Source: Crambe crambe (Eukaryota > Porifera > Demospongiae > Poecilosclerida > Crambeidae). Taken from it: 64,000 bases of DNA. Location: assembly GCA_963924555.1 (NCBI GenBank), contig OZ004589.1, positions 7,561,405-7,625,404 of the forward strand, given 5' to 3'. Position numbers and translations under genes: made by a program. How positions within the stretch are numbered: position 1 is the first letter of the stretch; each line of letters begins with the position of its first letter. The notes under the pieces were generated by a model, which worked only from the letters and a program-made list of their open reading frames with translations, ran no database searches and was not told where the DNA came from. Below are positions 6,001 through 64,000 of the stretch, piece by piece.

Positions 6001-6755
6001 GCAGATGCATGGTGTACAAACACATCTGGAGGCAATGATTCAAAAAGCCCTTCACAATATGCGCAAAGATGAGCTGTGGAAGAGGATGGTTTATGGAATA
6101 CACGAAGGGAGATCTGTAAGTCCATCTACAAGAACGATCAGCTATAGCTGTCATGACCTGTGTATGCACGACTGGTTCAGCAGAGTTTTGAAAAGTTGAC
6201 ATATTCCGACTTTCGCGACCTGCTGTATATGGTGACTGAATGTCCTCTGGAGGAACTCGACCCCAACCTCAGTCAACTTAAGCGCCAGCCCCGAAAATGG
6301 TTCAGGAAACTGATCCAGTGAGTGTATCTTGTCTATGTACTATAATTATTCTACACTCTGTCCTTCCCTAGACCTCTAGAGGCCAGGTTCACTGAAGATA
6401 TCAGAGTATACACCTCAGACGATGGCACCCACACTTACGCAGTATGTAGTTACTAGTGTGTGTATGAGGGTCGGGTGACCCTTGCATTGGTTGCATGCAG
6501 GCCATTGTGAACCCAGGCTGGCACGACATGCTAGTGCTGGTTCAGTCAGGAGCCACCAGTCAGCAAGTCAGTGGCATATCGGCAGTCTATCGCAAGCCCA
6601 AGGAAGGGGGTGTGCCTCTCAAAGAAAGACCGATCACAGCTAACTTGGAGGCAGATCGCCAACACATAGAAACAGTCATCAACTTCTGCTGCTGCTTCAT
6701 GTGGGCTAGTATTCTTGACAGTGCCCCTCCCCTGCCAAGTCTTAACCTTCTATAG
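1..6755 (+). CDS. SZT2: KICSTOR complex protein SZT2, 3' portion
   Basis: Multi-exon gene entering from the left edge, so the start and N-terminal part are missing; the stop is TAG at 6753. SZT2 is the very large scaffold of the KICSTOR complex, which holds GATOR1 on the lysosome so that mTORC1 is switched off when amino acids are low. The call rests on recognisable stretches along the reading frame: the segment with LPLPNWPGQDYQQTFFFYF (~2380-2450), the block FIHVHSFMCDFHLKLLLDLL (~5180-5240), the block around YTDPDKSTDNVRYLELVFYL (~5710-5775) and the C-terminal NPGWHDMLVLVQSG (~6510). There is no catalytic motif, as usual for this family. A glutamate-rich stretch opens the window (~35-120) and a serine-rich linker lies at ~2990-3240. 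Introns are short with GT-AG ends (for example the donors after ~350 and ~4040). The gene ends 33 bp from the stop of the opposing ELMOD gene. Confidence 0.82.
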
Positions 6756-6788
6756 TCCTTTTGTAAGACAATGTCTCTTTTTCTTTTT

Positions 6789-8073: not shown

Positions 8074-8085
8074 CTTCTGCCTAGT

Positions 8086-8091
8086 TTTATT
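8086..8091 (-). terminator. Probable poly(A) signal of ATPAF1
   Basis: AATAAA on the reverse strand, 29 bp past the ATPAF1 stop and 12 bp before the ELMOD start codon. If used, cleavage 10-30 nt further on would fall inside the first ELMOD coding exon, so the two transcription units would overlap. Confidence 0.4.
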
Positions 8092-8120
8092 CAGACGGTA
8101 AAGGGTCGATAACAAGATAA

Positions 8121-9394: not shown

Positions 9395-9610
9395 TTCCCT
9401 TCTTGACCTTTGGACTCTAGCTAATAACTTCGAGCAACGCCCCCCCCTAGTCTTTAGCTTGGCTGGAACATTAATTTTGGAGAAGATTCAGGAGCCTCAA
9501 CTTACATAGCTTGAAAGCCTTGGGGCCAGAGAGACTCTCTCAGATCGAGAAACTAAATTCCTGAGGGAATAATTTGTGCAAACTTCAAAGGCGTGGGCGG
9601 AGCTGGAGAG

Positions 9611-12600: not shown

Positions 12601-15600
12601 TGTGGTTTGTAGGTGAGCCCCCACCCTGACTCCATCACGTTCACTCGCTATTCATGCAGCCTCATTTTCTGGTTTGTCCCCAGCCCTGACTTGCTTTGTT
12701 AAGTTAGCTGCACCACCATGTGTGGGAGAGACCATGCAGCAAAACACACTTAATTGACCAACCTTCGTACATACCCAATGAAAGCAGGGCTGCCTTTATG
12801 AGTCCAAACTCTCTATTTCTGCAGCTTGCAAACCTGAACAAGATCCAGACATCTCCTACTCAGGTATACAACTTACATATCATTATGTATATATTTCTCC
12901 CATCACTGCATGCAAGGTAGAGACATGCATGACTTGTGCATGTGTTGATTCTGACCAGCTGCAATGTAGCATGAGGAGCATGGGAAAATGTATTGGATAG
13001 TATACAGTAGTTAGTCAGTGGCATAAACCCCTCACTGCTGCAAGCTGCTGCAGGTGCACAGTTACATAAATGGATTCATCTAGAGTATGTTTGGTCTACA
13101 ATAGACTCACTTAATAATCATGCATCCTATATTACTCCCTTTACTTCACATGCATGTATCATGCATGTATCTGTGGTGTACCTCCTCCAGATAATTAGCT
13201 AACTACAACTCTTACTCACTATGATATGCAGGTCCGCCTCACATCTCTGCCTGCACCGGCTTCCTTAGACCACACCGTGTTCCTTAGGAAGGTAATGTAT
13301 GTATGTATGTATGTATGTATGTATGTATGTATGTATGTATTGTTTTTGCATTTTGCATTATATGTGCCTTATGAGGTAGTGTGTGGCTCGTGTGAACTGT
13401 GGTTTTTGTTTAGTCTTGTTTGTGAAGGGATGTTGGAGTCAGAGTAAGGAGAAGGATGCTGTGTCTTCTTCTTCACAGGAAATCTCCAAGTTTGTTTATG
13501 AACTGCTTGCATTATCATGTGACCTAGCTTGCCTTCATTAATGATTTACAGTCAGCTAGTCCAAGCCCTCCCTGTGTGGAACCAGCACATATATAGTGTG
13601 ATGCCATCTGTTAACTTACATACTTGCACACATACATACATGCATACGTGCACAACACACATACACACTACAGACTGCAGTCAGTTGACTGCACAATTGG
13701 AAGAATTGTCTTTGCATGACATCATGAGAAATGGTGTCTCTAAATATCTTCTCAATGAGACGTAATTTCTGCTGCTCTTTTTAAGGTTGTGGTTATGTTG
13801 GACTAGTTACTGCCAATCAGTAAATTGTCTGAAGTCATTACCGCAAGTATTGATAGGTTAGTTAGCTCTACTTTTTACACTTTGCACCATATGCCTTGTG
13901 TACGGAAACTGTGTCACAGGGAACACAATTTCTTTAGCAACAGGGCAAGGTGAGGCTTTCACATGGTGTTGGCACAGACACACCTTACGCTACACAAAAG
14001 TGTTTATAATTAGATGCCTATCAATTAGCGGGCATGCCTGGAGGCTATGATGTCATGGTCTTCCCTTGTTTGACGTTGGACTGGGCAAGGTTGAGCCGAC
14101 CACACTGCTTTATGTGGAACATGGAAATGTGGTGGTATGCTAAAAAAAGACGCGTGTCATGGAGGCAGACATCACATTCCTTCAAGTATAGCAGTATATA
14201 AGAACAAGAATGATCTCTCTCTCTGTGGTCGACTAACTGCATTGTGGTAGATGGTCCCTCGCCACAGCACCCATTATGCTAATACTCTAATTACTCCATT
14301 GGAAAATTTGAATTCAAAGCTAATGAGGTGATGATGAGTGTGGAATAGGGAAAGACTTGTGGCTAATTGTGGTCCAGTCACCCACCTTACCGCATAAACT
14401 CAGTGTCTTGAGGCAAAGTTAAACGATAATTAGTAGTAAATTATTGAGCTTAAAGTGGCTAGATTTGAAATTGTTGTTGCTGGAGAAGGAGAGTCCCATC
14501 ATTGAGCTCTTGAAGGAGCTCTGTATGTACCACTAAACCCATTTACCTCAGGCCTAATCTACTTTGACCAGCTGGTCAAAAGAGAGTCTTTATATGTTCA
14601 TTGCTAATGATAGAGATTGTATACTTTTTAAGTATGTGGGAGCTGAGACCACTGAGGCCATATCCACAACTTTCTCAGGAAACAGCGAGTAAACAAAGTG
14701 CTTGATATCTCTCAGTGCATGACTTTGCGTCGTTTTGAAATAACCATATATAATACCCCTTTATTTTTTGACCACAAGCTCAAGGTATTATACAGAGACG
14801 TAGGCATGCCATTGTTTAGATGAAGAATTGTTTGGATGAAGGCATGTAGCAGTGAGCCTGTAAACATTGTTTAAATGTTTAGATGAGCATTGTTTAGATG
14901 AAGCTGCAGGGGCTATAGAATGTCCAAGGTCGCAGCAGAAATGTCAGCCATCTCTCTTGCTAGTACTTACATGTATTGCATTGTTATGTAAGAGCATGTA
15001 ACCTCAAAATGATAGCGAAGAGAGGTCAAAATGATTGGTCATTTGAGCTGGGGGTATTATTACTGTGTTGTTTTCTCTGGCCACAACTATTTGTCCCCAA
15101 CTCCGAGTGCATGTTTAGTTACACACATTGTGCAGGTAGCTCAGAGTAGAGACAAACTGCAACATGAGCAGCAGCAAATAATATCAAATGGCCGTATCAG
15201 TTACATGATAAATATTGTGCATGCTTTGCAGAGGACAGGATCTGAGTTGAAGCCTGCAGGCAGCACAGAAGTAGGTCTTCTGGGGCCACACTCCAAAGGT
15301 TCAGCTGCAAGTTTCAAGAAGCTCAGTCGTTTCTTTGGGGAAGATCCTCCTCGTGTGGAGACTCTCGAGAGTTTCTTGGAGGATTTGGGGTACATGCACC
15401 TGCTCCCAGTAAGATGTGGTAGTTAACTTGTGCACGAGTACATGGATTTTGCTGTGGGGTACGTGTTGTCAACAAGGCAACTAATTAGTGATATTGGGTT
15501 GGGCAAGAGATCTAATTGCATTGATTATGTATGTTATCCTGTTACGGAGTTTGTGGTCAACTTCTTATAGGCCATCTTGCACATAAATGGGTTCCCAGTG

Positions 15601-16113
15601 GGTTCCATGGATTGCATTCCACGGTGTATACAGCTCTGTAGCTTTGATCTCCTTGGAGATAGCGTTCATACAGCTATTATTTGTTGACAGTCGGTTAATT
15701 ATCCTTAACTCCTTTTAGAGAAGGTCTAACTATAGGTGTACATGGCCTCAGAGCCAAGCCCTGACCGACTTGAAAGCACCTGCGACACAAAAGATTCCTA
15801 CTCCACTTGATGATTAGGACTAATAGAACTGAGAGAACACTATCTCTATAGTTTGTTTCCTTTGGTAGTGTGCAAACATGTTTACCAAGAACCATGGGAG
15901 CTACTTACCAACAAATTCCATCACTCATTCACAGACTCATTACCTTCCTTTCCGCAGAAATTACGTGAACACAACATCTCATTGGCAGAACTCACTTCCC
16001 TCTCAGAGGCTCATCTGGAAGCCATAGGAGTGCCCCTGGGAGCACGCGTGCGTCTCATGGAAGGAGTGAAGAAACTGGAGCCCGTAGAAAATACTCGACT
16101 CAGACGAGTTTAA
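9611..16113 (+). CDS. Calponin-homology and SAM domain protein with central coiled coils
   Basis: Multi-exon gene with long introns after ~12000. The ATG at 9611 gives a short exon that splices (donor after 9652) to an exon starting near 9704. The first ~110 codons form one CH domain: KWTNQMLSMGGYSDHLVTDL, ADGTTLLKLVQTV, then LQICLDFLHQRSIHFEGVQA and DIESILTVCNALRKHY. This resembles the single CH domain of neuron navigators and implies binding to actin or microtubule-linked partners. A serine/basic linker follows (~10760-11450), then predicted coiled coil (LSALEERVKVLATQFLYERQ at ~11480-11540; RQLAEERIEALERASRQL at ~11640-11690). The last two exons form a SAM domain: ETLESFLEDLGYMHLLP (~15360-15408) joined to KLREHNISLAEL...GARVRLMEGVKKLE (~15959-16085). 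Stop at 16111-16113. I know no standard family with this exact order, and the exons between 12300 and 15200 are uncertain. Confidence 0.68.
13295..13341. repeat. (ATGT)n microsatellite
   Basis: About eleven tandem ATGT/TATG tetranucleotides inside an intron of the CH/SAM gene, next to an exon candidate at ~13226-13290. Confidence 0.95.
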
Positions 16114-16829
16114 GACAACACACAGTGTGTGTGGATGGGCTAGAACTGTTCCTTTAATTCTTTAATGCGCAAATTATTTTGCAATGATTTATTAATGATC
16201 AGTGCAGCCATAATAATTGATGCATCAGCCTTTATGGAATATTCTTTGGAGTTAAGATGATAATAATAAAATTAATAGACTGATAGATAGTGATTGGTAT
16301 GCCAAAAAATAATAATTCTGATTTGTACATTATAAGAGTGAGTGAGTGATTTTGAGTGATGCAGTATAAAAATACATGGAATGCACAATACATACATACC
16401 TGTATTGCAGATCATAAAAAAAAACAAAACATTATGTATGGTAGAGTGCTCTAGTGCTACATGTAGTAAATTAATGGATGTGGTTATACTAAATAGTCTA
16501 AGTAAAGACGCTACATAAAAATGATATCTGATTGGGTTAGTTCTAATACATAAAGGGACATAATCTGTTTAGCAACAAAACTACATGACAGTGACTGGGT
16601 TAGTGTGTCTGACCACAGGAGCACAAGACACATCATGTCAGCAGAGAAAGTTACTTGCAATTTTTGCATGATCTGCAGGTCTTTTTACTAAGGTTCAGTG
16701 GGTAGAAGGACTGGTTGATTGAATGAAGAGAAGACTAGCACTAGTTAGTAGCTATTCAAGAGATGTTTCCAGGTGCCTGCATTGAAAGGAGACAATGAAA
16801 TCATCCAGAGTCACGACGAGAGGAGGGTA
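16114..16829. other. Intergenic 3' ends of the CH/SAM and NFI genes
   Basis: AT-rich stretch with no coding signal, between two converging genes. A forward AATAAA at 16265-16270 could serve the CH/SAM gene, and a reverse AATAAA (TTTATT at 16188-16193) could serve NFI. Nothing else is recognised. Confidence 0.6.
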
Positions 16830-18826
16830 TTACTCACCCTGAGCTGATGTAAGTTGTGTTGAAACCGGAACATAACTGCTGCTCGAGTCTGATTCAGATC
16901 CTGTAAATAATGAACAAGTATGTCTCAATTGCTGTGCGTGTGGGATTGTCTCTAGCACAAACCTGGCAGTGGCAACCCTTCACTCAAGTCGCTCAATACA
17001 TGCAATGGTAGCTTTGGAATAACTTCTCCTTCAGTCAGCAAGTGGTCGGTCTGTGTAGTGGAGTCACAGTCTGGCTGCTCACAAGGACTGGTAGTGCGCG
17101 AGCGATAGTTGACAGCACTAACATCCTTCTCCTGGTAGACAGTGGTGTGAGGGACAGTAGGATTGGAGGGACTGCTGTGTGGAGGGGCTGGAGAATCACT
17201 GCCCACTTGCCTTTCTACTGAAGACACACTAAGAGGTGGCGTGAGGGGAGCAGTCATGTTCCCGTCTTCAACTCTGGAAGGTTGTGGAGGACTAAGTCCC
17301 TGATGGTTTCTAGCATTTGTTACTTGTGAAGGTGTGGTCGCATGATGAGCTGCTAAGTTGTATGCATTGCAGGAGTCAGTAGAGAGTGAGGTATAAGCCG
17401 CAGCAGCTGCAGCGGCAGCAGCAGCAGCAGCTGCCGTGGAGTAGCTGGCATATTGTGAAGGTGTGTAGTTGGCGAGTGAGCCAGAACTGAAGGTGGAGTG
17501 GACTTGGTTTTGTGCACTGACTGGGATATTGCTCTGATAGTGTTCTGCATCTTCTCCACCATAGTGATAGTAAGTGATTGGCTCTGGCTTCATGTACTTC
17601 ACCGAAGGAGGTTGTAAGTGATTGTAGTAAGCACAAGTGTCCATCATGCTGTATGCATCTAGTGCAGCTTGGTGTGCAGATCTTTTCCTGCAGGCGGCTT
17701 GAGGACGATCGTACCATAGCATTGGGTTGTAGAAAGCCTCTGACTCGGTGTAGCCTGAAGTTATCGGTACTGCGCGAATTAAAAGAAAGGGAGCAATATA
17801 ATTGTAGCCTTGTGATTGTAGCTGATATTTACCTCTGTGCTTGTCGTATAACTCTTGGGCACCAAACGCTCCTTTGATCTTGAGGTTTGTCAGTGCTTTT
17901 TCTCTCAATTTCATGTCCTCTTCTCTTCGAATACCTAAATTATGAAATATCTCAAGAGGTGAAGAAACATCCATTTCCTAAACTTACCAGTTGGAGAAAC
18001 AAAGTTGGATAAGTACAGATCCAATTCTTTGACTGTAACTTGAATGTGATTTGGTTGGACACAGAGTCCAGGATTGCGGCAATCTGGAGTTTTTCCAAGT
18101 CGTTCTCCATCAGTCGATTCCAAAGGAAAGGCATGGAATAAAATGGCCATTACTAGATCCAACCTCCAGACTTTATCTGCCTGACGTAAGCAGTCGATAC
18201 GCCTCATTTTCCCCTTCTGATCAGGAGTGGAGAGAACACAGCACGCTTGCATTTGACAAGTCACTGTTTTGAGGAGATATTCACGATGCTCTGGGCGAAT
18301 GTCTTTTCTTAATTTGGCAAGTAGCTGGGAAGCCCATTTTCTTTTGACCTCAGGCAATTCACTGTCCAGTTCCTGTTTGCAATGTCTCTCTTCTTCAGGT
18401 GTCATTCGACGATCATTTTCTAGTAGAACAATCATAAGTAAAGATGCAAGATGTGACGATGAGAAATTTCCATACCTTTGTAGAATTTTCTTTTTCTGGC
18501 TTGAAGATTCAGCCAAGTGTAAGCAAAAGATCGGACATGAGGGAGCAAGGTTTCAATGAATGTTCTCTGCTGATCCTACAGTGAATTAGTTTGCTGCTCA
18601 TGTGCAGTGAAGCATGCAATAGCTCATCAGCTGGCCTATTCTATCAATGTCTTACGGTTTTGTATTCATGTCCTTGCTGCTGGTCTTCAAGTGTAGCACT
18701 GGTTCCAGCAGATGGACTGCTCTGATGGGAAATCATAGTTGCTGATATCGTAGAAGCACAAGGCGAAGGAGCGAAATCTGTAGTTCTCTGTGCTACTGCT
18801 TGCCACGACTGACGGATCTCTGGCAT
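16830..18826 (-). CDS. NFI: Nuclear factor I transcription factor (CTF/NFI)
   Basis: Six exons can be read directly: 18656-18826, 18476-18575, 17988-18419, 17833-17934, 16964-17769 and 16830-16900. NFI proteins are sequence-specific transcription factors that bind palindromic TTGGC sites as dimers. The N-terminal DNA-binding domain (exons 2-3) is strongly conserved: [37 protein letters not shown], then [46 protein letters not shown] and [20 protein letters not shown]. The cysteines expected in the family are present ([17 protein letters not shown]). The long C-terminal exon is S/T/P-rich with a run of about 14 alanines (~17394-17437) and probably acts in activation or repression. The final small exon ends at TAA (16830-16832). 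Vertebrates have four paralogues (A, B, C, X), while invertebrates usually have one, so no letter is assigned. Confidence 0.95.
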
Positions 18827-19056
18827 ATTCTTACTTGCTCAATATAATTTTTCCTATGGAAACTTAGCTTGAAAGAGATAGCTTGCCAGGGTTAGCAGAA
18901 TTATTAGCAATGTACTTGCGAAAGCGTCCTTTTATACTGCACTAGGACTAATTATCATTATTACAGTGACCGCAGCGGTTCTTCCTGCGGAATAATTATT
19001 GCTAATTAATGTATGCGAATGCTTTTGATTCACTGAATTATAATTAAATAACCGGC

Positions 19057-21144
19057 CTAAACGATATTACTGCGGTCCTTCGGAGTAGAGTCTTGAATGG
19101 TTGCTGTTGTTGGTTTAGTGACTGGAGTGGGACTAGAGTTCTGTTCCTTAAATTTGAAGAAAGAGTAGACAATACTTGCTCCTACACTGCAACACACAAA
19201 ACGCAGAGTGATTATTCATCATTGTTGGAGGTCTCAGTGCTATAATTACATGAGGATTGCAGGCCCAAGGCTGCATAGAGACCCCAAGGGGAGGGGAAAC
19301 TTACCTGATATTAATACCAATAAAGTTGTATGGTTCAAATATGTAATCTCCACCAATGAACATACCAAAGTATGTTACCAACACATTCTGTAAGGAAAGT
19401 AAGCAGATATGAAACAAATGTTTCCAGTATTGGGAGGGGAGACACATTCTGTAAGAGGCAGATATTGGGAAGGAAGGATATGGTCAACATACCACAATTA
19501 TATACACGAACAGAAACAAAAGCCATGGAAAATGCATTGGTCAATTAGCAATAGGTGTGTATGAGTGAGAAGTGGGGGAGGAGAGAAGTCCCATAAGTTA
19601 CAAGGAGCATCTTATGGTAGTCACATGAAGGTGGGGTCACTGTTTGCTACTATATTTGGTAACCGACTTTCATGCATCCCACCACAGCGAGAGTGAGGGG
19701 AGACGTAAGTTGGTTTGCCAAAATTGTAGAATACATCAGAAAAAAACTGCATAAATGTAACATTAATTACGATGGTACGACTTTATAAGAACGAATGAAC
19801 ACACCCCATGACACAGGAAAGTAAGAAATTCAGCAAAAAGAATGGGTTAGTCCAGCCTTCATACATATAAGCCTGCGGGGGATTAATACAATCCCACAAA
19901 CAATCATTTCATATAAAGCTATAGACTCACTAGACGAAGTTCTCCAGAGAGAGCTGCTAGAAGAAGAGCAGGCAGAAATGAGAGCAAGGCATTGTAGAAT
20001 AGAATTTCTGATTTGCTCATCTAAAGGTATAGAGGAATCAAAGGTAAGGGTTAAAATGATTTCGAGTCTTGCCTCGGTATTGAGCTTCCGTTTGCTATAG
20101 ATGACTGCAGGGGAAGGAAAGAACAAGAATGCTTGGCAACCAGTCACAATGTAGTGAATGGATCACTACGGGCCATGCCCACTTGCCAAAACTACTGCCG
20201 CTAGGCAACTATTTAACCTCAAACATTAGAGCAGTGTCCCAAGCAACTAGGACGAGTGGGTGCATTGGATAGGTGGCACCTTTAGCTACAACTCTCCTAA
20301 TCCACATCAAACCACTTACTGTTAGCGGCTGTTGTAAAGTTATTCATTAGCACATAGACATAACCCATCAGATCAAAGGCCAAGTCATTCCTACAGTAAA
20401 ACGAAAGTGAGGGATGAGCAAGGGGCTTGGACAACACTTACAGAGCAGCTACCACTGCCCCTCCAACCATGAACAACAGAGTCAAGTTCACCCGTACGGA
20501 TTCATAGCGGCTGGAGAGCAAAGATTCGGTATAATAATGGAGACCAGTATAATGACTTACTCTAGTACATATATCTGTCCAACGGAGATGAAGATGAGAG
20601 AGAAGCGTCTCAAAACAGTGTACATTGGAAGACTGAAAGATATCGAAATGTAAGTTGATGGTTAAGTACGACTATATATTACTTGAGTTTCTTTGTGCTC
20701 CCTAGTCCAAAGATGAGATTCAGAACATAAAAGAGTGGAAGAGGCCACACCTACTTCAGGATACAAATTTAAAATTAGAAATGGACCACCAAGACACTGA
20801 CCTGTTTAGCCTGATTCACACTGGGGTTTGGAAATTGCACGACACGGAATAACTTTCCTACACTAATTACTAGAATAATTGCCAGGATCTAGGAAAAAAA
20901 AGTATCATAAAGGTTTAAAGTCAGGTCAATAAGGCTAACCTGACCCAAACCAAGAATTTGAAAGGACGGGAACCTGGACGAAGGTGGAAGGTCCAATATG
21001 CTTCAGGTCAGCATTGATTTAGACTAACCTATAAGTAGTCAAGACTGTTTTATTGACCACAACAATCAGCAAGGAGCTGAGTCCAAAGAAAAGGGAAGCT
21101 CCCACTTGTTTCAGCATATCCCTCATGTACTTGCTCTTACTCAT
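19057..21144 (-). CDS. SLC35D-type nucleotide-sugar transporter
   Basis: Reverse-strand, multi-exon membrane protein. SLC35D proteins exchange UDP-sugars (UDP-GlcNAc, UDP-glucuronate and others) for UMP across Golgi or ER membranes. The start (ATG at 21142-21144) leads into LFFGLSSLLIVVVNKTVLTT; the next exons give FPSFQILGLGQILAIILVIS, FPNPSVNQAKQVWPLPLFYV, and LNLPMYTVLRRFSI at ~20630-20590, all family signatures. The penultimate exon (~19290-19390) encodes VTYFGMFIGGDYIFEPYNF followed by IGINI, the conserved last helices. The final exon has a polar Lys/Ser/Thr tail ending at TAG (19057-19059). Several middle exons (~19400-20580) are short and I did not resolve every splice site. The D1/D2/D3 subtype and the substrate cannot be told from sequence alone. 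Confidence 0.82.
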
Positions 21145-49325: not shown

Positions 49326-49860
49326 AGGACTTGTATAGGTATCTTCCAATGATGACAAATGGTTATAACTCCTTAATAACAAAAGGGATTTCTATGAAAT
49401 TGCATATATATGACATACTAGTAATTTCATACAACATATTTGAAATTCTTTGAATTCCGTTAAGTCATTAAGGGGTTATTACCGTAATACCACATCTCCA
49501 AAACCATCAGGGGGAATTCTATGAAATTGCATATGTATAATATACTGGTAATTCCCCACAACATATTTGAAATTCTTCAAGTCATTAAGGGGTTATTACT
49601 GCAATACCATATCTCAAAAACCATCAGGGGGATTTCTATGAAATTGCATATGTATAACATGCTGGTAATTCACCAGGACATATTTGAAATTCTTTGAATT
49701 CCCTCAAGTCATTAAGGGGTTATTACTGTTATACCATATCTGTGAAGTCAGACATAGTAACCGCGTGGTCACAAAGGAATGTAATTACTAACCATAAATT
49801 TCCAGTGTGATACATAGTAGTGTCTTAGTCATGTGGATTTTCACATTAGCAGTTTTGGAG
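49326..49860. repeat. Satellite A, block 1 (~126-bp family)
   Basis: Starts at ACTTGTATAGGTATCT and contains tandem units marked by AAAACCATCAGGGGG, ATTCTATGAAATTGCATATG, ACATATTTGAAATTCTT and AAGTCATTAAGGGGTTATTA. Its closing segment (AGTCAGACATAGTAACC ... CCAGTGTGATACAT, ~49746-49816) recurs at the end of block 3. Confidence 0.85.
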
Positions 49861-50099
49861 ACTGCAACTATGTATGGGTGGTATGTCTGATTACCCTTAA
49901 AAGGTTTATTATATCTCGAAAATCAGGGGATTTTTATAATTATTTCAAAAACATGTTTGAATTTGTAGAATTCTGTCAAGTTATTGAGTGATCATCAAAA
50001 ACCATCAGGGATACGTACTAAGGCAATGTGAAACATTTGACAGCCAGCGAGCAAGTACTCTTGTGCTTCAAGTCTTTAGAAAATTTGCTGTGTTAAGTG

Positions 50100-51065
50100 G
50101 CAGGCATAAAACATGTACATAAAACACAATCCCTCCAAATTCCCTCTTGTGTGGAAGGATCTCTTGAAGTTTGAACGTTTCGATCAATCCATTGCACTGA
50201 AGTCAATCTCCTCGGCCGCAGCTTTAACCTCTTGGCTCCTTAATCGATACATACTTTAACCTCAACCTAGTCTACATAATAACACAATCCTCTTGTTTGA
50301 AATGATCTCTTGCAGTTTAAAACTTTCGCTGCAGCTATAACCCCTTGGCTTGTAAATTGATACATACTTTACCCTCAACCTAGTGTACATAAGAACACAA
50401 TCCCTCCAAATTCCCTCTTGTATGTTGCAGTTTGAACACTTTGATCAATGAAATCAATCTCCTTGGCAGCAGCTTTAACTCCTTGGCTCCTTAATTGATA
50501 CATAGCTTTCTCTCAACCTAGTGAACACAAGAACACAATCCCTCCAAATTCCCTCTTGTATGAAAGGATCTCTTGAAGTTTGAACATTTCGCTCAACCCA
50601 TTTGCACTGAAATCAATTTTCTTGGCCGCAGCTTTAACACCTCGTTCCTAAATTGATATGTACCTTTCTCTCTTCTAAGAACACAATTCCTCAAAATTCC
50701 CTCTTGTATGAAAGGATCTCTTGAAGTTTGAAAGTTTCGATCAATCCATTGAACTTAAAACAAGCAGCTTTAACCTCTTGGCTCCTAAATCGATACATAC
50801 CTTTCTCTCACCCTAGTGTACATAAGAACACAATCCCTCTTGTATGAAAGGATCTCTTGCAGTTTGAACGTTTGGATCAATCCATTGCACTGAAATCAAT
50901 CTCCTCGGCTGCACCCTTGGCTCCTAAATTGATACATACCTTTCTCTGACCCTAGTGTACACAAGAACACAATCCATCCAAATTCCATCTTGTATGAAGG
51001 ATCTCTGAAGTTTGAACGTTTCGATCAATCCATTGCACTGAAATCAATCTCTGCAGCTTCCCTCT
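50100..51065. repeat. Satellite B, block 1 (~140-160-bp family)
   Basis: About six or seven degenerate tandem units containing CACAATCCCTCCAAATTCC, TCTTGTATGAAAGGATCTC, TTGAAGTTTGAACGTTTCGA, GCACTGAAATCAATCTCCT and CTTGGCTCCTTAATTGATAC. Unit lengths vary through internal deletions. Confidence 0.85.
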
Positions 51066-51828
51066 TGTATGATTTCCGTCAGTCATTAATCTCAAAAACC
51101 ATCAGGGGGAATTCTATGAAATCGCATAATGCATAACATGCTGGTGAATTCTAGTCATTAAGGCGTAATACCATATCTCAAAAACCATCAGGGGGATTTG
51201 TATGAAATCACTCATGCATAACATGTCTGCACGACATATTTGAAATTCTTCCAATTCCCTCGTCATTAAGTACCATATCTCAAAAACCATCAGGAATTGC
51301 ATATGCATAACATGCTGATAATTCCCCACGACCTAATTATTTGAAATTCTTCCAATTCCCTCAAGTCATTAAGTACAATATCTCGAAAACCATCAGGGGG
51401 AATTCTATGGAATTGCATATGCATAACATGCCCACGACATATTTGAAATTCTTCCAATTTCCATAAGTCATTAAGGGGTTAATACATATCTTATAAGGGG
51501 AATTCTATGAAATTGCCTATGAATAACATGCTGGTAATTCCCCACGACATATTTGAAATTCTTCCAATTCCTTCAAGTCATTAAGGGGTTATTACCGTAA
51601 TACCATATCTCGAAAACTATCAGGGGGATTTGTATGAAATCACACAAGCATAACATGCTGATTATACCCCACGACATATTTGAAATTCGTCAAATTCCCT
51701 CAAGTCATTAAGGTGTTATTACTGCAATACCTATCTCAAAAACCATCGGGGGAATTCTATGAAATCATGTATGCATAATATGCTGGTAATCCCCCATGTC
51801 ACATTTGAAATTCTTCCAATTCCCTGAA
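51066..51828. repeat. Satellite A, block 2
   Basis: Further CCATCAGGGGG/AAGTCATTAAGG units, shorter and more deleted than block 3, running straight into the AT-rich block C copy 1. Confidence 0.85.
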
Positions 51829-52846
51829 ATATAAAGAGAATGCAAAAGATTTCTATATAATAGCATTGCCACTTGTATATGCTTACTTTGGCCATAACGA
51901 TAATTTTGAAAATATTCCACAAGGGCTGCATCATAGGAGTTCCTAGCTACATCATAAAATACAAAAAACATTGGAAACTTGCCTTGCGATTGGGTGGAAA
52001 AAGATACTTCCTGCATTGTCGGAGTTCCTTAGCCAAGGACGGTACTTTGCCCCAGTCTGCATTGGTCGTAACCCCCGTAGCCGGTTGCAAGCGATTAATT
52101 TCATACCTCAAACCGAGCCAGTCATGCCATTTCTACTAACTTTAAAAGAAATTTTCCTTTCGCTCATGTTTTTATTATAAATTTATACAGATAATTCTGA
52201 TATCCTCTCTGTGTGTATTTCACACATTTAATTTGTGGATATCGATACCCACCTATAACGCAATACTTTCATTCGCTCAAAACTTTTGAAATTTAAAGAA
52301 AATACAAAAGATTTCTATATAACAGCATTGCCTTCTGTTTAAGCTATCTATTAATATGCTTAGTTTGGCCATACCTATAATTTCGAAAATATATCATAAT
52401 AGGTCTTCAAAGTAACGGATGACGAATTCATACTATCATAATTTTTGAAACATCAATCATATACAGATAATTTCTATAGCATAGCATTGGTCTTTATGTA
52501 AGCTTTCTGTTCATATACTTACTTTGTCCATTCAGACAATTTTCAAAACACATGGTAAAGGGTCGTCGAATTTCTAACCTACAGATAACTGATGGTGACT
52601 TCTGGCTATCATAACTTTTGAAATATCAAGTGTATACATATAATTTTGATATCATAGCATTGCTCTCTGTGTAAGCTTTCTGCTAATATGCATATTTTGT
52701 CCATATCAACAAAGTTCAACTATTCAGAACAGTCTCTTCACTATTAACTTTCGAAATATTCACCCACATTTTGTTAAATTTTTCTTAACACACATAGTTA
52801 AGACAATTGCGCATATTAATTGCTAACTACGCATATTTGTCTAATT
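51829..52846. repeat. AT-rich block C, copy 1
   Basis: About 1 kb shared with 56565-57617: for example AATGCAAAAGATTTCTATAT, TCGTAACCCCCGTAGC, CCGAGCCAGTCATGCCATTT and AACTATTCAGAACAGTCTCT occur in both in the same order. It is itself made of degenerate units around ATTTCTATATAACAGCATTG. Followed directly by a 20-bp array. Confidence 0.88.
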
Positions 52847-53102
52847 GATGCCCACCATGTCTAATTGGCGCCCACCATGTCTAATTGGCGCCCACCATGT
52901 CTAATTGGCGCCCACCATGTCTAATTGGCGCCCACCATGTCTAATTGGCGCCCACCATGTCTAATTGGCGCCCACCATGTCTAATTGGCGCCCACCATGT
53001 CTAATTGGCGCCCACCATGTCTAATTGGCGCCCACCATGTCTAATTGGCGCCCACCATGTCTAATTGGCGCCCACCATGTCTAATTGGCGCCCACCATGT
53101 CT
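52847..53102. repeat. 20-bp minisatellite, array 1 (~13 units)
   Basis: Unit TCTAATTGGCGCCCACCATG, repeated head-to-tail with no differences after the first unit, which carries GATG in place of GGCG. Ends in TCTAGG at the junction with satellite A block 3. Confidence 0.97.
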
Positions 53103-53880
53103 AGGACTTGTATAGGTATCTCCCAATGATGACAAATGGTTACAACTCCTTAATAACAAAAGAGATTTCTATGAAATTACATATATATGACATACTAGTA
53201 ATTCCATACAACATATTTGAAATTCTTTGAATTCCGTTAAGTCATTAAGGGGTTATTACCGTAATACCATATCTCAAAAACCATCTGGGGGAATTCTATG
53301 AAATTGCATATATATAACATACTGGTAATTCCCCACAACATATTTGAAATTCTTCCAATTCCCTCAAGTCATTAAGGGGTTATTACCATAATATCATATC
53401 TCGAAAACCATCAGGGGAATTCTATGAAATTACATCCGTATAACATCCTGGTAATTCCCCACAACATATTTGAAATTCTTCCAATTCTGTCAAGTCATTA
53501 AGGGGTTGTTACCATAATACCACATCTCAAAAACCATCAGGGGGATATCTATGAAATTACATATGTATAACATACTGGTAATTCCCTAAAACATATTTGA
53601 AATTCTTCGAATTCCGTCAAGTCATTAAGGGGTTCTTACCGTAATACCATATCTCAAAAACCATCAGGGGGATTTCTTTAAAATTATATATGTATGACAT
53701 ACTGGTAATTCCCTATAACATACGAAATTCTTCGAATTCAGTTAAGTCATTAAGGGGTTATTACCGTAATGCCATATCTCAAGAACCATCAGTGGAAAGT
53801 TGTGTGGTCAGACATAGTAACCACGTGGTCATAAAAGAATGTAATTACTAACCATAAATTTCCAGTGTGATACATCTGTA
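53103..53880. repeat. Satellite A, block 3
   Basis: Most regular block: CCATC marks at 53281, 53408, 53534, 53661 and 53786 give a period of 125-127 bp. The first and last segments match block 1, so this is a second copy of the same cassette. Confidence 0.92.
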
Positions 53881-54649
53881 TGAAATGCATTGTTTCTCTG
53901 GAATGAAGTATAGCATTGGCCTAAAATTTGCATATAGTTATTATCTGAATAGGTGGACAAATCAACATTTGGATTTATCGACACCTATTCTAGAATTTCA
54001 TTTAGCAAGCCATGTAATGTTGCAATAGCAGAGTTTCAAGTCCTTAGCATTAGAGATTGACAGAGTCATGCAAGTGGTTGCTCCCTCCATACATAGAAAG
54101 CTATAAAACCAACAGGGGGAATTCTATGAAAGCCCTCAGAATAACCAAACCCTCTGGCAGCCTTAGCCAAACCCATAGATATATGCTGGTTCAAGGTCTG
54201 AAAAAAAAAACAACAAAAAAAAACAAGAGGCCCTATACACCTAAAAATCCGAATAATGGACACCTAGAGGCCCTGTACACCTAGCAATATGAATAACGGA
54301 CAATTAGCCCTCAGAATAACCCTTACAGATATATGCTGGTTCTAGGTCCGAAAAAACAACAAGAGGCCCTATACACCTAGCAATCCGAATAATGGACACC
54401 TAGACCCAAAATCTCAAATCATTAATCAAACACGAAGTTAACAAACTTGAACTCCAAGTTCCAGTGGGCAGAATGCACTTAAGATCTTGGATTGTGGGGT
54501 TAACACTTCTAGAATACGAGGGTGAACTAGGATATGATAGCTGTAACCCCCCTCCCAAAGGCTTGTGATGTGCAAGTTACTTGCCTTCTGTCTATTAAAT
54601 GACAGGTCCCTAGAACTTTGCTCATTGTCCCCCCAGCTGTATCCCTGAA
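53881..54649. repeat. Spacer with short tandem motif
   Basis: Mostly unique AT-rich sequence. From ~54140 to 54410 there are three to four copies of a ~45-70-bp motif containing GAGGCCCTATACACCTA, CAATCCGAATAATGGACACC and AGATATATGCTGGTTC. No gene is supported. Confidence 0.6.
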
Positions 54650-55550
54650 AGTAGTTTGAACATTTCGATCAATCCATCAATCTCTTTGGCTGCAGCTTTA
54701 ACCCCTCGGTTCCTTAATTGATACATACCTTTCTCTCACCCTAGTGTACATAAAAACACAGTCTCTCCAAATTCCCTATCGTATGAAAGGATCTCTTGAA
54801 GTTTGAAAGTTTAGATCTATCCATTGCACTAAAATCAATCTCCTCAGCAGCAGCTTTAACCCCTTGGCTCCAAAATAGATACATACCTTTTTCTCGACCT
54901 AGTGTACATAAGAACGTAATCCTTCCAAATTCCCTCTCGTATCTTGTAGTTTAAACGTCTCGATGAATCGAAAACAATCTCCTGTGAAGCATATTTAACC
55001 CCTTGGGTCCTAAATTGATAATTACTTTTTTTCAACCTAGTTTACATATTAACATAATCCCTCCAAATTCCCTCTTGTATGAAAGGATCTCTTATAGTTT
55101 AAACGTTTTGATGAATCCATTACACTAAAATCAATCTCCTTTGCCACAGCTTTAACTCCATGGTTCCTAAATTGATATATACAAACTAGTTTACATAAGA
55201 ACACAATCCCTTCAAATTCCCTCTTGTATGGAAGGATCTCTTGCAGTTTAAACGTTTCGATGAATCCATTGCACTGAAATCAATCTCCTCAGCCGCAGCA
55301 TTAACCCCTTGGCTCCTTAATTAATACATACCTTTTCTCTCACCCAAGTTTACATGAGAACACAAATTCCCTCATGTATGAAAGGATCTGTTGCAGTTTG
55401 AATGTTTCGATCAGTCCATTGGACTGAAATCAATCTCCTCGGCTTGAGATTTAACCCCAATCGATACATACTTTCCTCTAAATCTATAGTTTGCATAAGA
55501 ACACAATCCCTCCTAATTTCATCTTGTATTTAAAGATCTCTTGTAGTTTA
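54650..55550. repeat. Satellite B, block 2
   Basis: Six or so units of the same family as 50100-51065. CTAGTGTACAT/CTAGTTTACAT marks at about 54741, 54899 and 55037 give spacings near 158 and 138 bp. Confidence 0.85.
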
Positions 55551-56160
55551 AACCATAAATAACCAAAACATGCATAACCATGAATAACCTTCAATAACCA
55601 AGGATAACCATTGATAACCAACCATGAATAACAGTGGCGTATCTAGAGTTTGAGCTAGGAGGGTGCTTGCATAATGCGCGGCGAAATTTTTGCGAACCAC
55701 GCCCACTTTTGATTAACCATACCCTCTTTATCATACCCAGATGATGGCCTAAGTATTAGCTACCCTACTTTACCAGCGTACAGGATCAGAAGTGAGAAGA
55801 CACTGGTGCAGACTGAATAAAGAAGCACAGAAATTTTAGATCGAGATGTGCATTATTTAGGGTAAAAACGTGCCGGGCGCATGCGCCTCGCCGATGTGAT
55901 TATTGAACTCTGACCCAATGCTGCTCTTTCTGTGAGTGTAATATTAAACTGCTTGCTAGATGATCAGCTTTAAATAATTGGATAGATAACTATAGAAGCG
56001 AGCCTACTGAAAAAGCTAGCTAGCAGCGGGGGTGCTCGAGCACCCTGAGCACCTCGCTAGATACGCCACGCACCTCGCTAGATACGCCACTGAATAACCA
56101 TGAATAACCATGAATAACCATGAATAACCAGCAGCAGCATAACCATGAATAACCATGGAT
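55551..56160. repeat. TAACCATGAA minisatellite, split by an insertion
   Basis: Degenerate 10-bp units (ATAACCATGA) at 55551-55631 and 56093-56160, separated by the TIR element at 55632-56092. Confidence 0.85.
55632..56092. mobile_element. Short TIR element inserted in the minisatellite
   Basis: Perfect 15-bp terminal inverted repeats, CAGTGGCGTATCTAG at 55632 and CTAGATACGCCACTG ending at 56092. AATAA flanks both sides, a likely 5-bp target duplication, although the host repeat makes this ambiguous. The right end is tandemly duplicated (GCACCTCGCTAGATACGCCAC appears twice within ~56050-56090, core of 20 bases). It is non-coding, 461 bp, so a MITE. Internal GGCGCATGCGCC palindrome at 55876-55887. 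Confidence 0.82.
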
Positions 56161-57617: not shown

Positions 57618-58161
57618 TTTTCCTATTGATGCCCACCACTTCTAATTGATGCCCACCACTTCTAATTGATGCCCACCACTTCTAATTGATGCCCACCACT
57701 TCTAATTGATGCCCACCACTTCTAATTGATGCCCACCACTTCTAATTGATGCCCACCACTTCTAATTGATGCCCACCACTTCTAATTGATGCCCACCACT
57801 TCTAATTGATGCCCACCACTTCTAATTGATGCCCACCACTTCTAATTGATGCCCACCACTTCTAATTGATGCCCACCACTTCTAATTGATGCCCACCACT
57901 TCTAATTGATGCCCACCACTTCTAATTGATGCCCACCACTTCTAATTGATGCCCACCACTTCTAATTGATGCCCACCACTTCTAATTGATGCCCACCACT
58001 TCTAATTGATGCCCACCACTTCTAATTGATGCCCACCACTTCTAATTGATGCCCACCACTTCTAATTGATGCCCACCACTTCTAATTGATGCCCACCACT
58101 TCTAATTGATGCCCACCACTTCTAATTGATGCCCACCACTTCTAATTGATGCCCACCACTT
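57618..58161. repeat. 20-bp minisatellite, array 2 (~27 units)
   Basis: Unit TCTAATTGATGCCCACCACT, identical in every copy. It differs from array 1 at four positions (GA for GC after TTG... and CT for TG at the end). Its last unit runs into the telomere-like array through TCTAGGGG. Confidence 0.97.
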
Positions 58162-61100
58162 CTAGGGGCTAGGGCTAGGGCTAGGGCTAGGGCTAGGGCT
58201 AGGGCTAGGGCTAGGGCTAGGGCTAGGGCTAGGGCTAGGGCTAGGGCTAGGGCTAGGGCTAGGGCTAGGGCTAGGGCTAGGGCTAGGGCTAGGGCTAGGG
58301 CTAGGGCTAGGGCTAGGGCTAGGGCTAGGGCTAGGGCTAGGGCTAGGGCTAGGGCTAGGGCTAGGGCTAGGGCTAGGGCTAGGGCTAGGGCTAGGGCTAG
58401 GGCTAGGGCTAGGGCTAGGGCTAGGGCTAGGGCTAGGGCTAGGGCTAGGGCTAGGGCTAGGGCTAGGGCTAGGGCTAGGGCTAGGGCTAGGGCTAGGGCT
58501 AGGGCTAGGGCTAGGGCTAGGGCTAGGGCTAGGGCTAGGGCTAGGGCTAGGGCTAGGGCTAGGGCTAGGGCTAGGGCTAGGGCTAGGGCTAGGGCTAGGG
58601 CTAGGGCTAGGGCTAGGGCTAGGGCTAGGGCTAGGGCTAGGGCTAGGGCTAGGGCTAGGGCTAGGGCTAGGGCTAGGGCTAGGGCTAGGGCTAGGGCTAG
58701 GGCTAGGGCTAGGGCTAGGGCTAGGGCTAGGGCTAGGGCTAGGGCTAGGGCTAGGGCTAGGGCTAGGGCTAGGGCTAGGGCTAGGGCTAGGGCTAGGGCT
58801 AGGGCTAGGGCTAGGGCTAGGGCTAGGGCTAGGGCTAGGGCTAGGGCTAGGGCTAGGGCTAGGGCTAGGGCTAGGGCTAGGGCTAGGGCTAGGGCTAGGG
58901 CTAGGGCTAGGGCTAGGGCTAGGGCTAGGGCTAGGGCTAGGGCTAGGGCTAGGGCTAGGGCTAGGGCTAGGGCTAGGGCTAGGGCTAGGGCTAGGGCTAG
59001 GGCTAGGGCTAGGGCTAGGGCTAGGGCTAGGGCTAGGGCTAGGGCTAGGGCTAGGGCTAGGGCTAGGGCTAGGGCTAGGGCTAGGGCTAGGGCTAGGGCT
59101 AGGGCTAGGGCTAGGGCTAGGGCTAGGGCTAGGGCTAGGGCTAGGGCTAGGGCTAGGGCTAGGGCTAGGGCTAGGGCTAGGGCTAGGGCTAGGGCTAGGG
59201 CTAGGGCTAGGGCTAGGGCTAGGGCTAGGGCTAGGGCTAGGGCTAGGGCTAGGGCTAGGGCTAGGGCTAGGGCTAGGGCTAGGGCTAGGGCTAGGGCTAG
59301 GGCTAGGGCTAGGGCTAGGGCTAGGGCTAGGGCTAGGGCTAGGGCTAGGGCTAGGGCTAGGGCTAGGGCTAGGGCTAGGGCTAGGGCTAGGGCTAGGGCT
59401 AGGGCTAGGGCTAGGGCTAGGGCTAGGGCTAGGGCTAGGGCTAGGGCTAGGGCTAGGGCTAGGGCTAGGGCTAGGGCTAGGGCTAGGGCTAGGGCTAGGG
59501 CTAGGGCTAGGGCTAGGGCTAGGGCTAGGGCTAGGGCTAGGGCTAGGGCTAGGGCTAGGGCTAGGGCTAGGGCTAGGGCTAGGGCTAGGGCTAGGGCTAG
59601 GGCTAGGGCTAGGGCTAGGGCTAGGGCTAGGGCTAGGGCTAGGGCTAGGGCTAGGGCTAGGGCTAGGGCTAGGGCTAGGGCTAGGGCTAGGGCTAGGGCT
59701 AGGGCTAGGGCTAGGGCTAGGGCTAGGGCTAGGGCTAGGGCTAGGGCTAGGGCTAGGGCTAGGGCTAGGGCTAGGGCTAGGGCTAGGGCTAGGGCTAGGG
59801 CTAGGGCTAGGGCTAGGGCTAGGGCTAGGGCTAGGGCTAGGGCTAGGGCTAGGGCTAGGGCTAGGGCTAGGGCTAGGGCTAGGGCTAGGGCTAGGGCTAG
59901 GGCTAGGGCTAGGGCTAGGGCTAGGGCTAGGGCTAGGGCTAGGGCTAGGGCTAGGGCTAGGGCTAGGGCTAGGGCTAGGGCTAGGGCTAGGGCTAGGGCT
60001 AGGGCTAGGGCTAGGGCTAGGGCTAGGGCTAGGGCTAGGGCTAGGGCTAGGGCTAGGGCTAGGGCTAGGGCTAGGGCTAGGGCTAGGGCTAGGGCTAGGG
60101 CTAGGGCTAGGGCTAGGGCTAGGGCTAGGGCTAGGGCTAGGGCTAGGGCTAGGGCTAGGGCTAGGGCTAGGGCTAGGGCTAGGGCTAGGGCTAGGGCTAG
60201 GGCTAGGGCTAGGGCTAGGGCTAGGGCTAGGGCTAGGGCTAGGGCTAGGGCTAGGGCTAGGGCTAGGGCTAGGGCTAGGGCTAGGGCTAGGGCTAGGGCT
60301 AGGGCTAGGGCTAGGGCTAGGGCTAGGGCTAGGGCTAGGGCTAGGGCTAGGGCTAGGGCTAGGGCTAGGGCTAGGGCTAGGGCTAGGGCTAGGGCTAGGG
60401 CTAGGGCTAGGGCTAGGGCTAGGGCTAGGGCTAGGGCTAGGGCTAGGGCTAGGGCTAGGGCTAGGGCTAGGGCTAGGGCTAGGGCTAGGGCTAGGGCTAG
60501 GGCTAGGGCTAGGGCTAGGGCTAGGGCTAGGGCTAGGGCTAGGGCTAGGGCTAGGGCTAGGGCTAGGGCTAGGGCTAGGGCTAGGGCTAGGGCTAGGGCT
60601 AGGGCTAGGGCTAGGGCTAGGGCTAGGGCTAGGGCTAGGGCTAGGGCTAGGGCTAGGGCTAGGGCTAGGGCTAGGGCTAGGGCTAGGGCTAGGGCTAGGG
60701 CTAGGGCTAGGGCTAGGGCTAGGGCTAGGGCTAGGGCTAGGGCTAGGGCTAGGGCTAGGGCTAGGGCTAGGGCTAGGGCTAGGGCTAGGGCTAGGGCTAG
60801 GGCTAGGGCTAGGGCTAGGGCTAGGGCTAGGGCTAGGGCTAGGGCTAGGGCTAGGGCTAGGGCTAGGGCTAGGGCTAGGGCTAGGGCTAGGGCTAGGGCT
60901 AGGGCTAGGGCTAGGGCTAGGGCTAGGGCTAGGGCTAGGGCTAGGGCTAGGGCTAGGGCTAGGGCTAGGGCTAGGGCTAGGGCTAGGGCTAGGGCTAGGG
61001 CTAGGGCTAGGGCTAGGGCTAGGGCTAGGGCTAGGGCTAGGGCTAGGGCTAGGGCTAGGGCTAGGGCTAGGGCTAGGGCTAGGGCTAGGGCTAGGGCTAG

Positions 61101-64000
61101 GGCTAGGGCTAGGGCTAGGGCTAGGGCTAGGGCTAGGGCTAGGGCTAGGGCTAGGGCTAGGGCTAGGGCTAGGGCTAGGGCTAGGGCTAGGGCTAGGGCT
61201 AGGGCTAGGGCTAGGGCTAGGGCTAGGGCTAGGGCTAGGGCTAGGGCTAGGGCTAGGGCTAGGGCTAGGGCTAGGGCTAGGGCTAGGGCTAGGGCTAGGG
61301 CTAGGGCTAGGGCTAGGGCTAGGGCTAGGGCTAGGGCTAGGGCTAGGGCTAGGGCTAGGGCTAGGGCTAGGGCTAGGGCTAGGGCTAGGGCTAGGGCTAG
61401 GGCTAGGGCTAGGGCTAGGGCTAGGGCTAGGGCTAGGGCTAGGGCTAGGGCTAGGGCTAGGGCTAGGGCTAGGGCTAGGGCTAGGGCTAGGGCTAGGGCT
61501 AGGGCTAGGGCTAGGGCTAGGGCTAGGGCTAGGGCTAGGGCTAGGGCTAGGGCTAGGGCTAGGGCTAGGGCTAGGGCTAGGGCTAGGGCTAGGGCTAGGG
61601 CTAGGGCTAGGGCTAGGGCTAGGGCTAGGGCTAGGGCTAGGGCTAGGGCTAGGGCTAGGGCTAGGGCTAGGGCTAGGGCTAGGGCTAGGGCTAGGGCTAG
61701 GGCTAGGGCTAGGGCTAGGGCTAGGGCTAGGGCTAGGGCTAGGGCTAGGGCTAGGGCTAGGGCTAGGGCTAGGGCTAGGGCTAGGGCTAGGGCTAGGGCT
61801 AGGGCTAGGGCTAGGGCTAGGGCTAGGGCTAGGGCTAGGGCTAGGGCTAGGGCTAGGGCTAGGGCTAGGGCTAGGGCTAGGGCTAGGGCTAGGGCTAGGG
61901 CTAGGGCTAGGGCTAGGGCTAGGGCTAGGGCTAGGGCTAGGGCTAGGGCTAGGGCTAGGGCTAGGGCTAGGGCTAGGGCTAGGGCTAGGGCTAGGGCTAG
62001 GGCTAGGGCTAGGGCTAGGGCTAGGGCTAGGGCTAGGGCTAGGGCTAGGGCTAGGGCTAGGGCTAGGGCTAGGGCTAGGGCTAGGGCTAGGGCTAGGGCT
62101 AGGGCTAGGGCTAGGGCTAGGGCTAGGGCTAGGGCTAGGGCTAGGGCTAGGGCTAGGGCTAGGGCTAGGGCTAGGGCTAGGGCTAGGGCTAGGGCTAGGG
62201 CTAGGGCTAGGGCTAGGGCTAGGGCTAGGGCTAGGGCTAGGGCTAGGGCTAGGGCTAGGGCTAGGGCTAGGGCTAGGGCTAGGGCTAGGGCTAGGGCTAG
62301 GGCTAGGGCTAGGGCTAGGGCTAGGGCTAGGGCTAGGGCTAGGGCTAGGGCTAGGGCTAGGGCTAGGGCTAGGGCTAGGGCTAGGGCTAGGGCTAGGGCT
62401 AGGGCTAGGGCTAGGGCTAGGGCTAGGGCTAGGGCTAGGGCTAGGGCTAGGGCTAGGGCTAGGGCTAGGGCTAGGGCTAGGGCTAGGGCTAGGGCTAGGG
62501 CTAGGGCTAGGGCTAGGGCTAGGGCTAGGGCTAGGGCTAGGGCTAGGGCTAGGGCTAGGGCTAGGGCTAGGGCTAGGGCTAGGGCTAGGGCTAGGGCTAG
62601 GGCTAGGGCTAGGGCTAGGGCTAGGGCTAGGGCTAGGGCTAGGGCTAGGGCTAGGGCTAGGGCTCGGCTCTAGGGCTAGGGCTAGGGCTAGGGCTAGGGC
62701 TAGGGCTAGGGCTAGGGCTAGGGCTAGGGCTAGGGCTAGGGCTAGGGCTAGGGCTAGGGCTAGGGCTAGGGCTAGGGCTAGGGCTAGGGCTAGGGCTAGG
62801 GCTAGGGCTAGGGCTAGGGCTAGGGCTAGGGCTAGGGCTAGGGCTAGGGCTAGGGCTAGGGCTAGGGCTAGGGCTAGGGCTAGGGCTAGGGCTAGGGCTA
62901 GGGCTAGGGCTAGGGCTAGGGCTAGGGCTAGGGCTAGGGCTAGGGCTAGGGCTAGGGCTAGGGCTAGGGCTAGGGCTAGGGCTAGGGCTAGGGCTAGGGC
63001 TAGGGCTAGGGCTAGGGCTAGGGCTAGGGCTAGGGCTAGGGCTAGGGCTAGGGCTAGGGCTAGGGCTAGGGCTAGGGCTAGGGCTAGGGCTAGGGCTAGG
63101 GCTAGGGCTAGGGCTAGGGCTAGGGCTAGGGCTAGGGCTAGGGCTAGGGCTAGGGCTAGGGCTAGGGCTAGGGCTAGGGCTAGGGCTAGGGCTAGGGCTA
63201 GGGCTAGGGCTAGGGCTAGGGCTAGGGCTAGGGCTAGGGCTAGGGCTAGGGCTAGGGCTAGGGCTAGGGCTAGGGCTAGGGCTAGGGCTAGGGCTAGGGC
63301 TAGGGCTAGGGCTAGGGCTAGGGCTAGGGCTAGGGCTAGGGCTAGGGATAGGGCTAGGGCTAGGGCTAGGGCTAGGGCTAGGGCTAGGGCTAGGGCTAGG
63401 GCTAGGGCTAGGGCTAGGGCTAGGGCTAGGGCTAGGGCTAGGGCTAGGGCTAGGGCTAGGGCTAGGGCTAGGGCTAGGGCTAGGGCTAGGGCTAGGGCTA
63501 GGGCTAGGGCTAGGGCTAGGGCTAGGGCTAGGGCTAGGGCTAGGGCTAGGGCTAGGGCTAGGGCTAGGGCTAGGGCTAGGGCTAGGGCTAGGGCTAGGGC
63601 TAGGGCTAGGGCTAGGGCTAGGGCTAGGGCTAGGGCTAGGGCTAGGGCTAGGGCTAGGGCTAGGGCTAGGGCTAGGGCTAGGGCTAGGGCTAGGGCTAGG
63701 GCTAGGGCTAGGGCTAGGGCTAGGGCTAGGGCTAGGGCTAGGGCTAGGGCTAGGGCTAGGGCTAGGGCTAGGGCTAGGGCTAGGGCTAGGGCTAGGGCTA
63801 GGGCTAGGGCTAGGGCTAGGGCTAGGGCTAGGGCTAGGGCTAGGGCTAGGGCTAGGGCTAGGGCTAGGGCTAGGGCTAGGGCTAGGGCTAGGGCTAGGGC
63901 TAGGGCTAGGGCTAGGGCTAGGGCTAGGGCTAGGGCTAGGGCTAGGGCTAGGGCTAGGGCTAGGGCTAGGGCTAGGGCTAGGGCTAGGGCTAGGGCTAGG
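58162..64000 (+). repeat. Telomere-like (CTAGGG)n array
   Basis: About 5.84 kb, roughly 970 hexamers, reaching the right edge of the window. The first unit is CTAGGGG; all others read CTAGGG except one disturbed spot at ~62661-62672 (CTCGGCT inserted in place of a unit) and one single-base variant ATAGGG at ~63348. The G-rich strand runs 5' to 3' toward the right end, the orientation of a true telomere. The canonical animal repeat is TTAGGG, and I see none of it here. The sequence would still form G-quadruplexes, with CTA loops. Confidence 0.93.

Follow-up and report, generated by a model that had tools for sequence, protein, structure and literature searches.

Do the chromosomes of a sponge end in CTAGGG instead of TTAGGG? 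Among animals, TTAGGG is considered the ancestral telomere repeat. The telomeres of three sponge species that had been analysed consisted exclusively of TTAGGG (PMC5793068). The question is raised by the window, that is, the whole stretch of 64,000 nucleotides of Crambe crambe DNA that was analysed (C12:7561405-7625404), which closes with a long CTAGGG array. The assembly used comprises 143,139,886 bases in 119 contigs, and the published assembly odCraCram1 was reported to have 143.20 Mb in 124 scaffolds (PMC12166358). Scaffold C12 is 7,625,404 bases long, and thus base 64,000 of the window is its last base; the window is the right end of Crambe crambe chromosome 9. The following features were located in it:

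49462..55553, no strand assigned: subtelomeric stretch containing tandem repeats of longer period, about 102-284 bp (TRF)
52838..53103, + strand: related 20-bp satellite, unit TGTCTAATTGGCGCCCACCA, 13.3 copies (TRF)
57625..58164, + strand: subtelomeric 20-bp satellite, unit ATTGATGCCCACCACTTCTA, 27 perfect copies (TRF)
58162..64000, + strand: terminal CTAGGG telomere array, outward G-strand, 969 perfect units in 3 runs with 2 interruptions

The array consists of long perfect runs at positions 58169-62662 (749 units), 62670-63347 (113 units), and 63354-63995 (107 units), which are separated by interruptions at 62663-62669 and 63348-63353. In a copy count the window contained 973 CTAGGG hexamers, 970 of which start at or after position 58162, and TRF described positions 58166-64000 as a repeat of period 6 with 972.3 copies and 99% matches. 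The first-pass annotation had claimed about 970 nearly perfect units with an outward G-strand, an absence of TTAGGG, and an ordered subtelomere in front of the array, and all of these claims were verified. The G-rich strand is directed toward the end of the window, which is the end of the scaffold. A motif count revealed no TTAGGG inside the array (58162-64000), and the five copies present in the window are isolated, far apart, and all located before position 58162. The 27-copy satellite directly abuts the array, its CTA merging with the first G run of the telomere, and the related satellite lies further inside. A continuation of the array into unique DNA, which had been named as a sign of an internal satellite, was not seen, as C12 stops inside the array. 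Contamination was considered as a source of the array and was ruled out by the presence of animal-type genes on the same scaffold, namely SZT2 (E 8e-20), a DOCK protein gene (E 5e-7), and an MH1-domain protein gene, and of an HMG-CoA synthase gene. The array of the window is very probably a genuine Crambe crambe telomere.

The 18 large contigs that represent chromosome scaffolds have 36 ends, and all of them were examined. For the left ends, the first 10 kb were inspected for 15 of the 18 chromosomes and the first 90 bases for the other three; for the right ends, the last 90 bases were inspected for 17 chromosomes, while the eighteenth is the window. A terminal CTAGGG array was present at 28 of the 36 ends and no end terminated in TTAGGG, and thus the exchange of the repeat proposed from a single end was found at others as well. 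All 28 arrays have telomere orientation, with C-strand repeats, (CCCTAG)n, at 15 of the 18 left ends and G-strand repeats, (CTAGGG)n, at 13 of the 18 right ends. Irregular tips were seen in the first 12 bases of C6 left, the first 30 bases of C10 left, and the last ~40 bases of C6 right (degenerate). Correctly oriented arrays with an internal start were found at C12 left and C10 right, 7.8 and 14.4 kb from the end, respectively, and 18.8 kb inside the left end of C1, the only one of the 18 chromosomes that does not have at least one terminal array; those at C1 and C12 left sit behind a fragment with a G-strand array of its own. No array was detected in the first 10 kb of C15 left, in the last 90 bases of C1, C13, C17, and C21 right, or in the first 10 kb of the small contigs C2, C4, and C7.

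The genome-wide counts were similarly one-sided. The 24-mer (CTAGGG)4 yielded 40,889 overlapping matches (19,099 forward and 21,790 reverse), compared to none for a reversed-letter control and to an arithmetic expectation of about a millionth for a given 24-mer in 143 Mb, which excludes chance. The corresponding (TTAGGG)4 was found only twice, once on each strand, at C12:294,537 and C17:5,345,193. Both sites are internal (0.29 and 1.45 Mb away from the closest scaffold end), and none is at any end, where isolated TTAGGG copies occur at 0-9 per 10 kb examined. The repeat unit of the Crambe crambe ends is therefore not the TTAGGG that defines the canonical animal telomere.

To describe array length and purity, 13 arrays were measured, 12 from left ends and that of the window, and runs of at least 4 perfect units less than 60 bases apart were joined. 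The arrays are 4.8-8.6 kb long with 801-1,428 units each, and their 12,991 units are 99.8% pure, with 28 interruptions, a count that leaves aside irregular bases at the C6 and C10 tips and in the initial units of C13 and C14. The interruptions comprised 14 single extra G, 6 missing G, and 3 ATAGGG; of the remaining five, one, in the C13 array, contains two TTAGGG and is the sole TTAGGG place in the 13 arrays. The mean HiFi read length was 6.9 kb (67.94 Gb in 9.82 million reads, from a table in PMC12166358). As the arrays are about as long as the reads, their lengths are lower bounds, and the real tip may be unassembled. With the outermost DNA possibly absent, CTAGGG could form a thick tract of variant repeats on the proximal side, and the true telomere, of TTAGGG, could lie distally, beyond the assembled bases, all the more as short CTAGGG blocks occur within human telomeres (PMC8492063). 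However, (TTAGGG)4 is at no end, the outermost assembled bases at the 28 ends consist of CTAGGG units, in some cases degenerate ones, and arrays of this purity, with TTAGGG at one place only, are unlike an interspersed variant zone. A hidden TTAGGG tip is therefore very unlikely.

It was also considered whether a sequencing or assembly artefact had converted TTAGGG to CTAGGG. Some base callers are known to have difficulties with telomere repeats, and the arrays have confused the assembler or the scaffolding: head-to-head joins of (CTAGGG)n followed by (CCCTAG)n, without N gaps, are present near the starts of C1 (within 10,001-20,000, covering 215-9998 of that segment) and of C12 (within 1-10,000, covering 765-9999). 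Against a conversion, the left and the right ends agree in opposite orientation, and TTAGGG is still called as such in the two internal (TTAGGG)4 tracts, showing that it was not converted everywhere. Furthermore, 20 of the 28 interruptions are one-base changes of G-run length, and such changes resemble HiFi errors. The data are PacBio HiFi reads with 459-fold coverage and a QV of 58.1 (PMC12166358; the word "telomere" is absent from the main text of that paper). An artefact was the least probable of all readings that were weighed, and is very unlikely.

The head-to-head joins themselves probably result from misjoining, to which the palindromic CTAG core of the repeat would be conducive; a real fusion is less likely. 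At the joint of C12, degenerate units of the CTAGGCCTAGGCC type are present, as might result from a merger of reads from both strands. A third peculiar start was observed at C3:1-53,300, where an apparent leading segment of ~44 kb has telomere arrays on both sides and is followed by the chromosome proper (C-strand array at 1-5392, G-strand array starting at 36.4-43.0 kb, and C-strand array from 44.2 kb or earlier). This segment was likely misjoined; the stranger reading would be a tiny element with telomeres at both of its ends.

The proximal junctions can indicate how the arrays arose, and 16 array starts were compared. The same 20-bp satellite was found to be cut at 8 of the 16 starts, in five phases of its unit: after ...CTA at C5 left, C11 left, C14 left, and C12 right, after ...CCATA at C17 left, after ...GATGCC at C18 left, after ...TTGA at C10 left, and after ...AATTG in the fragment at C12 left. 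A script detected an overlap of 1-3 bases that fits both the satellite and the repeat at four of the eight junctions (C5, C11, C17, and C18 left). At C12 right and C14 left the same CTA overlap is visible by eye, as irregular first units defeat the script, while at C10 left and C12 left at most one base fits both. A further case is a truncated element: the subtelomeres of C3 left and C10 right are identical over the 60 bases shown, through ...GACCGCTTCTAGGTG (which ends in CTAGGTG), after which C3 left switches to CTAGGG, while the element of C10 right continues. Several phases of the satellite together with a truncated element argue for templated addition, since a spreading satellite would have kept one junction. 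We infer from these few ends that the array starts reflect broken subtelomeres that were capped by templated addition, as in telomerase healing; some of the ends compared may share ancestry via subtelomere exchange. C6 left and C8 left, and likewise C10 right and C13 left, were seen to share subtelomeric blocks beside the array, with few differences.

The genome was searched for components of a telomerase system. The TERT RNA-binding domain PF12009 matched at C6:7,555,175-7,555,665 (E 1.0e-13 and 1.9e-6); the first of these matches runs across a single in-frame TAG, which is perhaps intronic. Two pieces matched TERT structures in the PDB (E 1.2e-4 and 0.012). Judged by these similarities, a TERT gene is present in the genome, as fragments. 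The TERT_C profile gave no match, the control genomes being also empty, and in the RVT_1 search, in which 150 of 801 candidates were scored, TERT could not be made out among the many other reverse transcriptases. The POT1PC domain (PF16686) was found above the cut-off at C20:502,520-502,873 on the plus strand and at C21:151,424-151,825 on the minus strand, within open frames of 623 and 491 amino acids, respectively, which suggests that Crambe crambe has two POT1-like genes. The three best PDB matches of the C20 domain were POT1, at weak E values of 0.13-0.14, and the C21 domain had no useful PDB match. The TRF homology domain PF08558 matched neither in Crambe crambe nor in the control genomes. 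A telomerase RNA was searched for with the vertebrate model RF00024, which gave no match here or in the controls (27 of 286 first-look candidates scored), and with an isolated 11-nt template in the human register, which matched at 74 places (38 + 36) and yielded no single candidate. These places mostly have a T next and include a local tandem repeat on C12, and the reversed-letter control of the pattern matched at 8 + 4 places. A local tandem repeat at C12:247,631-247,980 has 13 copies of CTAGCCCTAGC on the minus strand at a spacing of ~28 bp.

These results bear on another explanation, according to which CTAGGG is a terminal satellite that is maintained by recombination, without telomerase. 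In its favour, other satellites adjoin the arrays, subtelomeric blocks recur at some of the ends, and a telomerase RNA was not found with RF00024 or the 11-nt pattern. On the other hand, TERT fragments are present, albeit with the possibly intronic TAG, the arrays have a near-perfect 6-bp homogeneity, and the five-phase satellite starts together with the CTAGGG-capped truncated element resemble template-directed addition. Maintenance by recombination is regarded as even less likely than an unassembled TTAGGG tip, and ranks above an artefact. With high confidence, CTAGGG is the bulk telomere repeat of the Crambe crambe genome, and it is probably made by telomerase via a CTAGGG-coding RNA template.

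For such a telomerase-made repeat the following mechanism can be proposed. CTAGGG would be added by a telomerase RNA whose template is a permutation of CCCUAG, e.g., 5'-CUAGCCCUA-3', in place of CCCUAA. Compared with the ancestral CUAACCC, this would be one A-to-G change per template repeat. In a short template, a single mutation could convert all newly added repeats, and the new repeats would then have displaced the old ones from the tip inward. A template of 8 nt has been reported for a snail, compared to 11 nt in human (PMC8480181). It is probably the POT1-like proteins that bind the overhang, since (CTAGGG)n has been described to bind POT1 efficiently in vitro (PMC8492063). Hence the protein that binds the single strand may have stayed as it was, whereas duplex binding and replication probably had to change. 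TRF-type Myb domains see the T at the exchanged position, and a duplex-binding protein would have to tolerate a C instead.

The exchanged base also makes the CTAG core of the repeat self-complementary. In a folding prediction, which does not cover quadruplexes, single-stranded (CTAGGG)8 formed a 12-pair CTAG-CTAG fold of -5.2 kcal/mol, compared to none for (TTAGGG)8; the centroid structure of (CTAGGG)8 was unpaired, and 200 of 200 dinucleotide shuffles folded at least as well. The oligonucleotide d[AGGG(CTAGGG)3] has been described to form a two-layer chair-type quadruplex (PMC6330691).

Internal CTAGGG tracts were used to ask how old the change might be. The array-start pattern, which misses starts with a C six bases upstream, had 241 matches, 100 of which were listed, and tracts of at least 4 units were tallied on the fully listed chromosomes C1, C3, C5, C6, and C8 (47.0 Mb). 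More than 100 kb from either end, 35 tract starts were found, 18 on the plus and 17 on the minus strand. Within the 100-kb ends of the same chromosomes, the right ends had 18 plus and no minus starts, and the left ends 27 minus and 6 plus starts; the 6 plus starts belong to the C1 and C3 head-to-head segments. There was no (TTAGGG)4 on these five chromosomes. If such internal tracts are formed at breaks, by telomerase or from telomeric DNA, this would be suggestive of CTAGGG having been in use for longer than they last. A more extended scenario, namely that a one-letter template change swapped the telomere of a sponge lineage for a repeat that is unstable in human cells, that this lies far enough back for internal telomeric tracts to have become CTAGGG as well, and that duplex-binding proteins and the replication machinery adapted, stands at about an even chance.

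Shifts of telomere motifs are usually explained by a change of the telomerase RNA template. Lineage-specific motifs have been described, e.g., TTAGG in arthropods, TTAGGC in nematodes, and compound repeats in Bombus (PMC10767889, PMC11814493). Crambe shares a changed end motif with these cases and differs from them in the letter that has changed and in being a sponge. With the TTAGGG telomeres of sponges and other animals it has in common a six-base G-rich repeat, outward orientation, kilobase arrays, and TERT and POT1-like genes; in contrast, its repeat starts with C and not with T. The same repeat unit is known from (CTAGGG)n blocks of human telomeres and from the pvT1 region of HHV-6B. However, there it is a short block inside TTAGGG or a viral repeat, while in Crambe it is the bulk repeat. 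The short human blocks were described as highly unstable in somatic and germline cells (PMC8492063). For three sponges, Amphimedon and Oscarella among them, telomerase RNAs have been reported that possess the template-pseudoknot, CR4/5, and H/ACA domains (PMC8480181), whereas the putative Crambe template is derived from the repeat. CTAGGG is absent from the main text of the TeloBase paper (PMC10767889), and the parts of the tidk paper considered do not name it (PMC11814493). Among the literature matches listed, judged by titles and the beginnings of abstracts, CTAGGG was nowhere described as the bulk telomere repeat of an animal; it may nevertheless already be listed as such in sources beyond this search, for instance in subscription papers, on preprint servers, or in public telomere tables.

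A sponge with CTAGGG telomeres would be a natural experiment on how a telomerase RNA template can change without killing the lineage. It would also make it possible to test how duplex- and single-strand-binding proteins follow a change of the template, and what allows a repeat with unstable behaviour in human telomeres to serve a whole genome as telomere. As a practical warning, FISH probes, TRAP primers, and telomere counters based on TTAGGG would miss CTAGGG telomeres.

In collections of viral and prokaryotic sequences, CTAGGG tracts were found in 1 + 8 stretches, all of them short, with 8-15 units. The metagenome-assembled contig CAJWOB010000372.1 starts with (CCCTAG)8 followed by a mix of CCCTAC, CCCTAG, and CCCTAA in telomere-like orientation (positions 1-100). 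It was considered as a second case of a CTAGGG telomere and was rejected, because its reading frames look bacterial.
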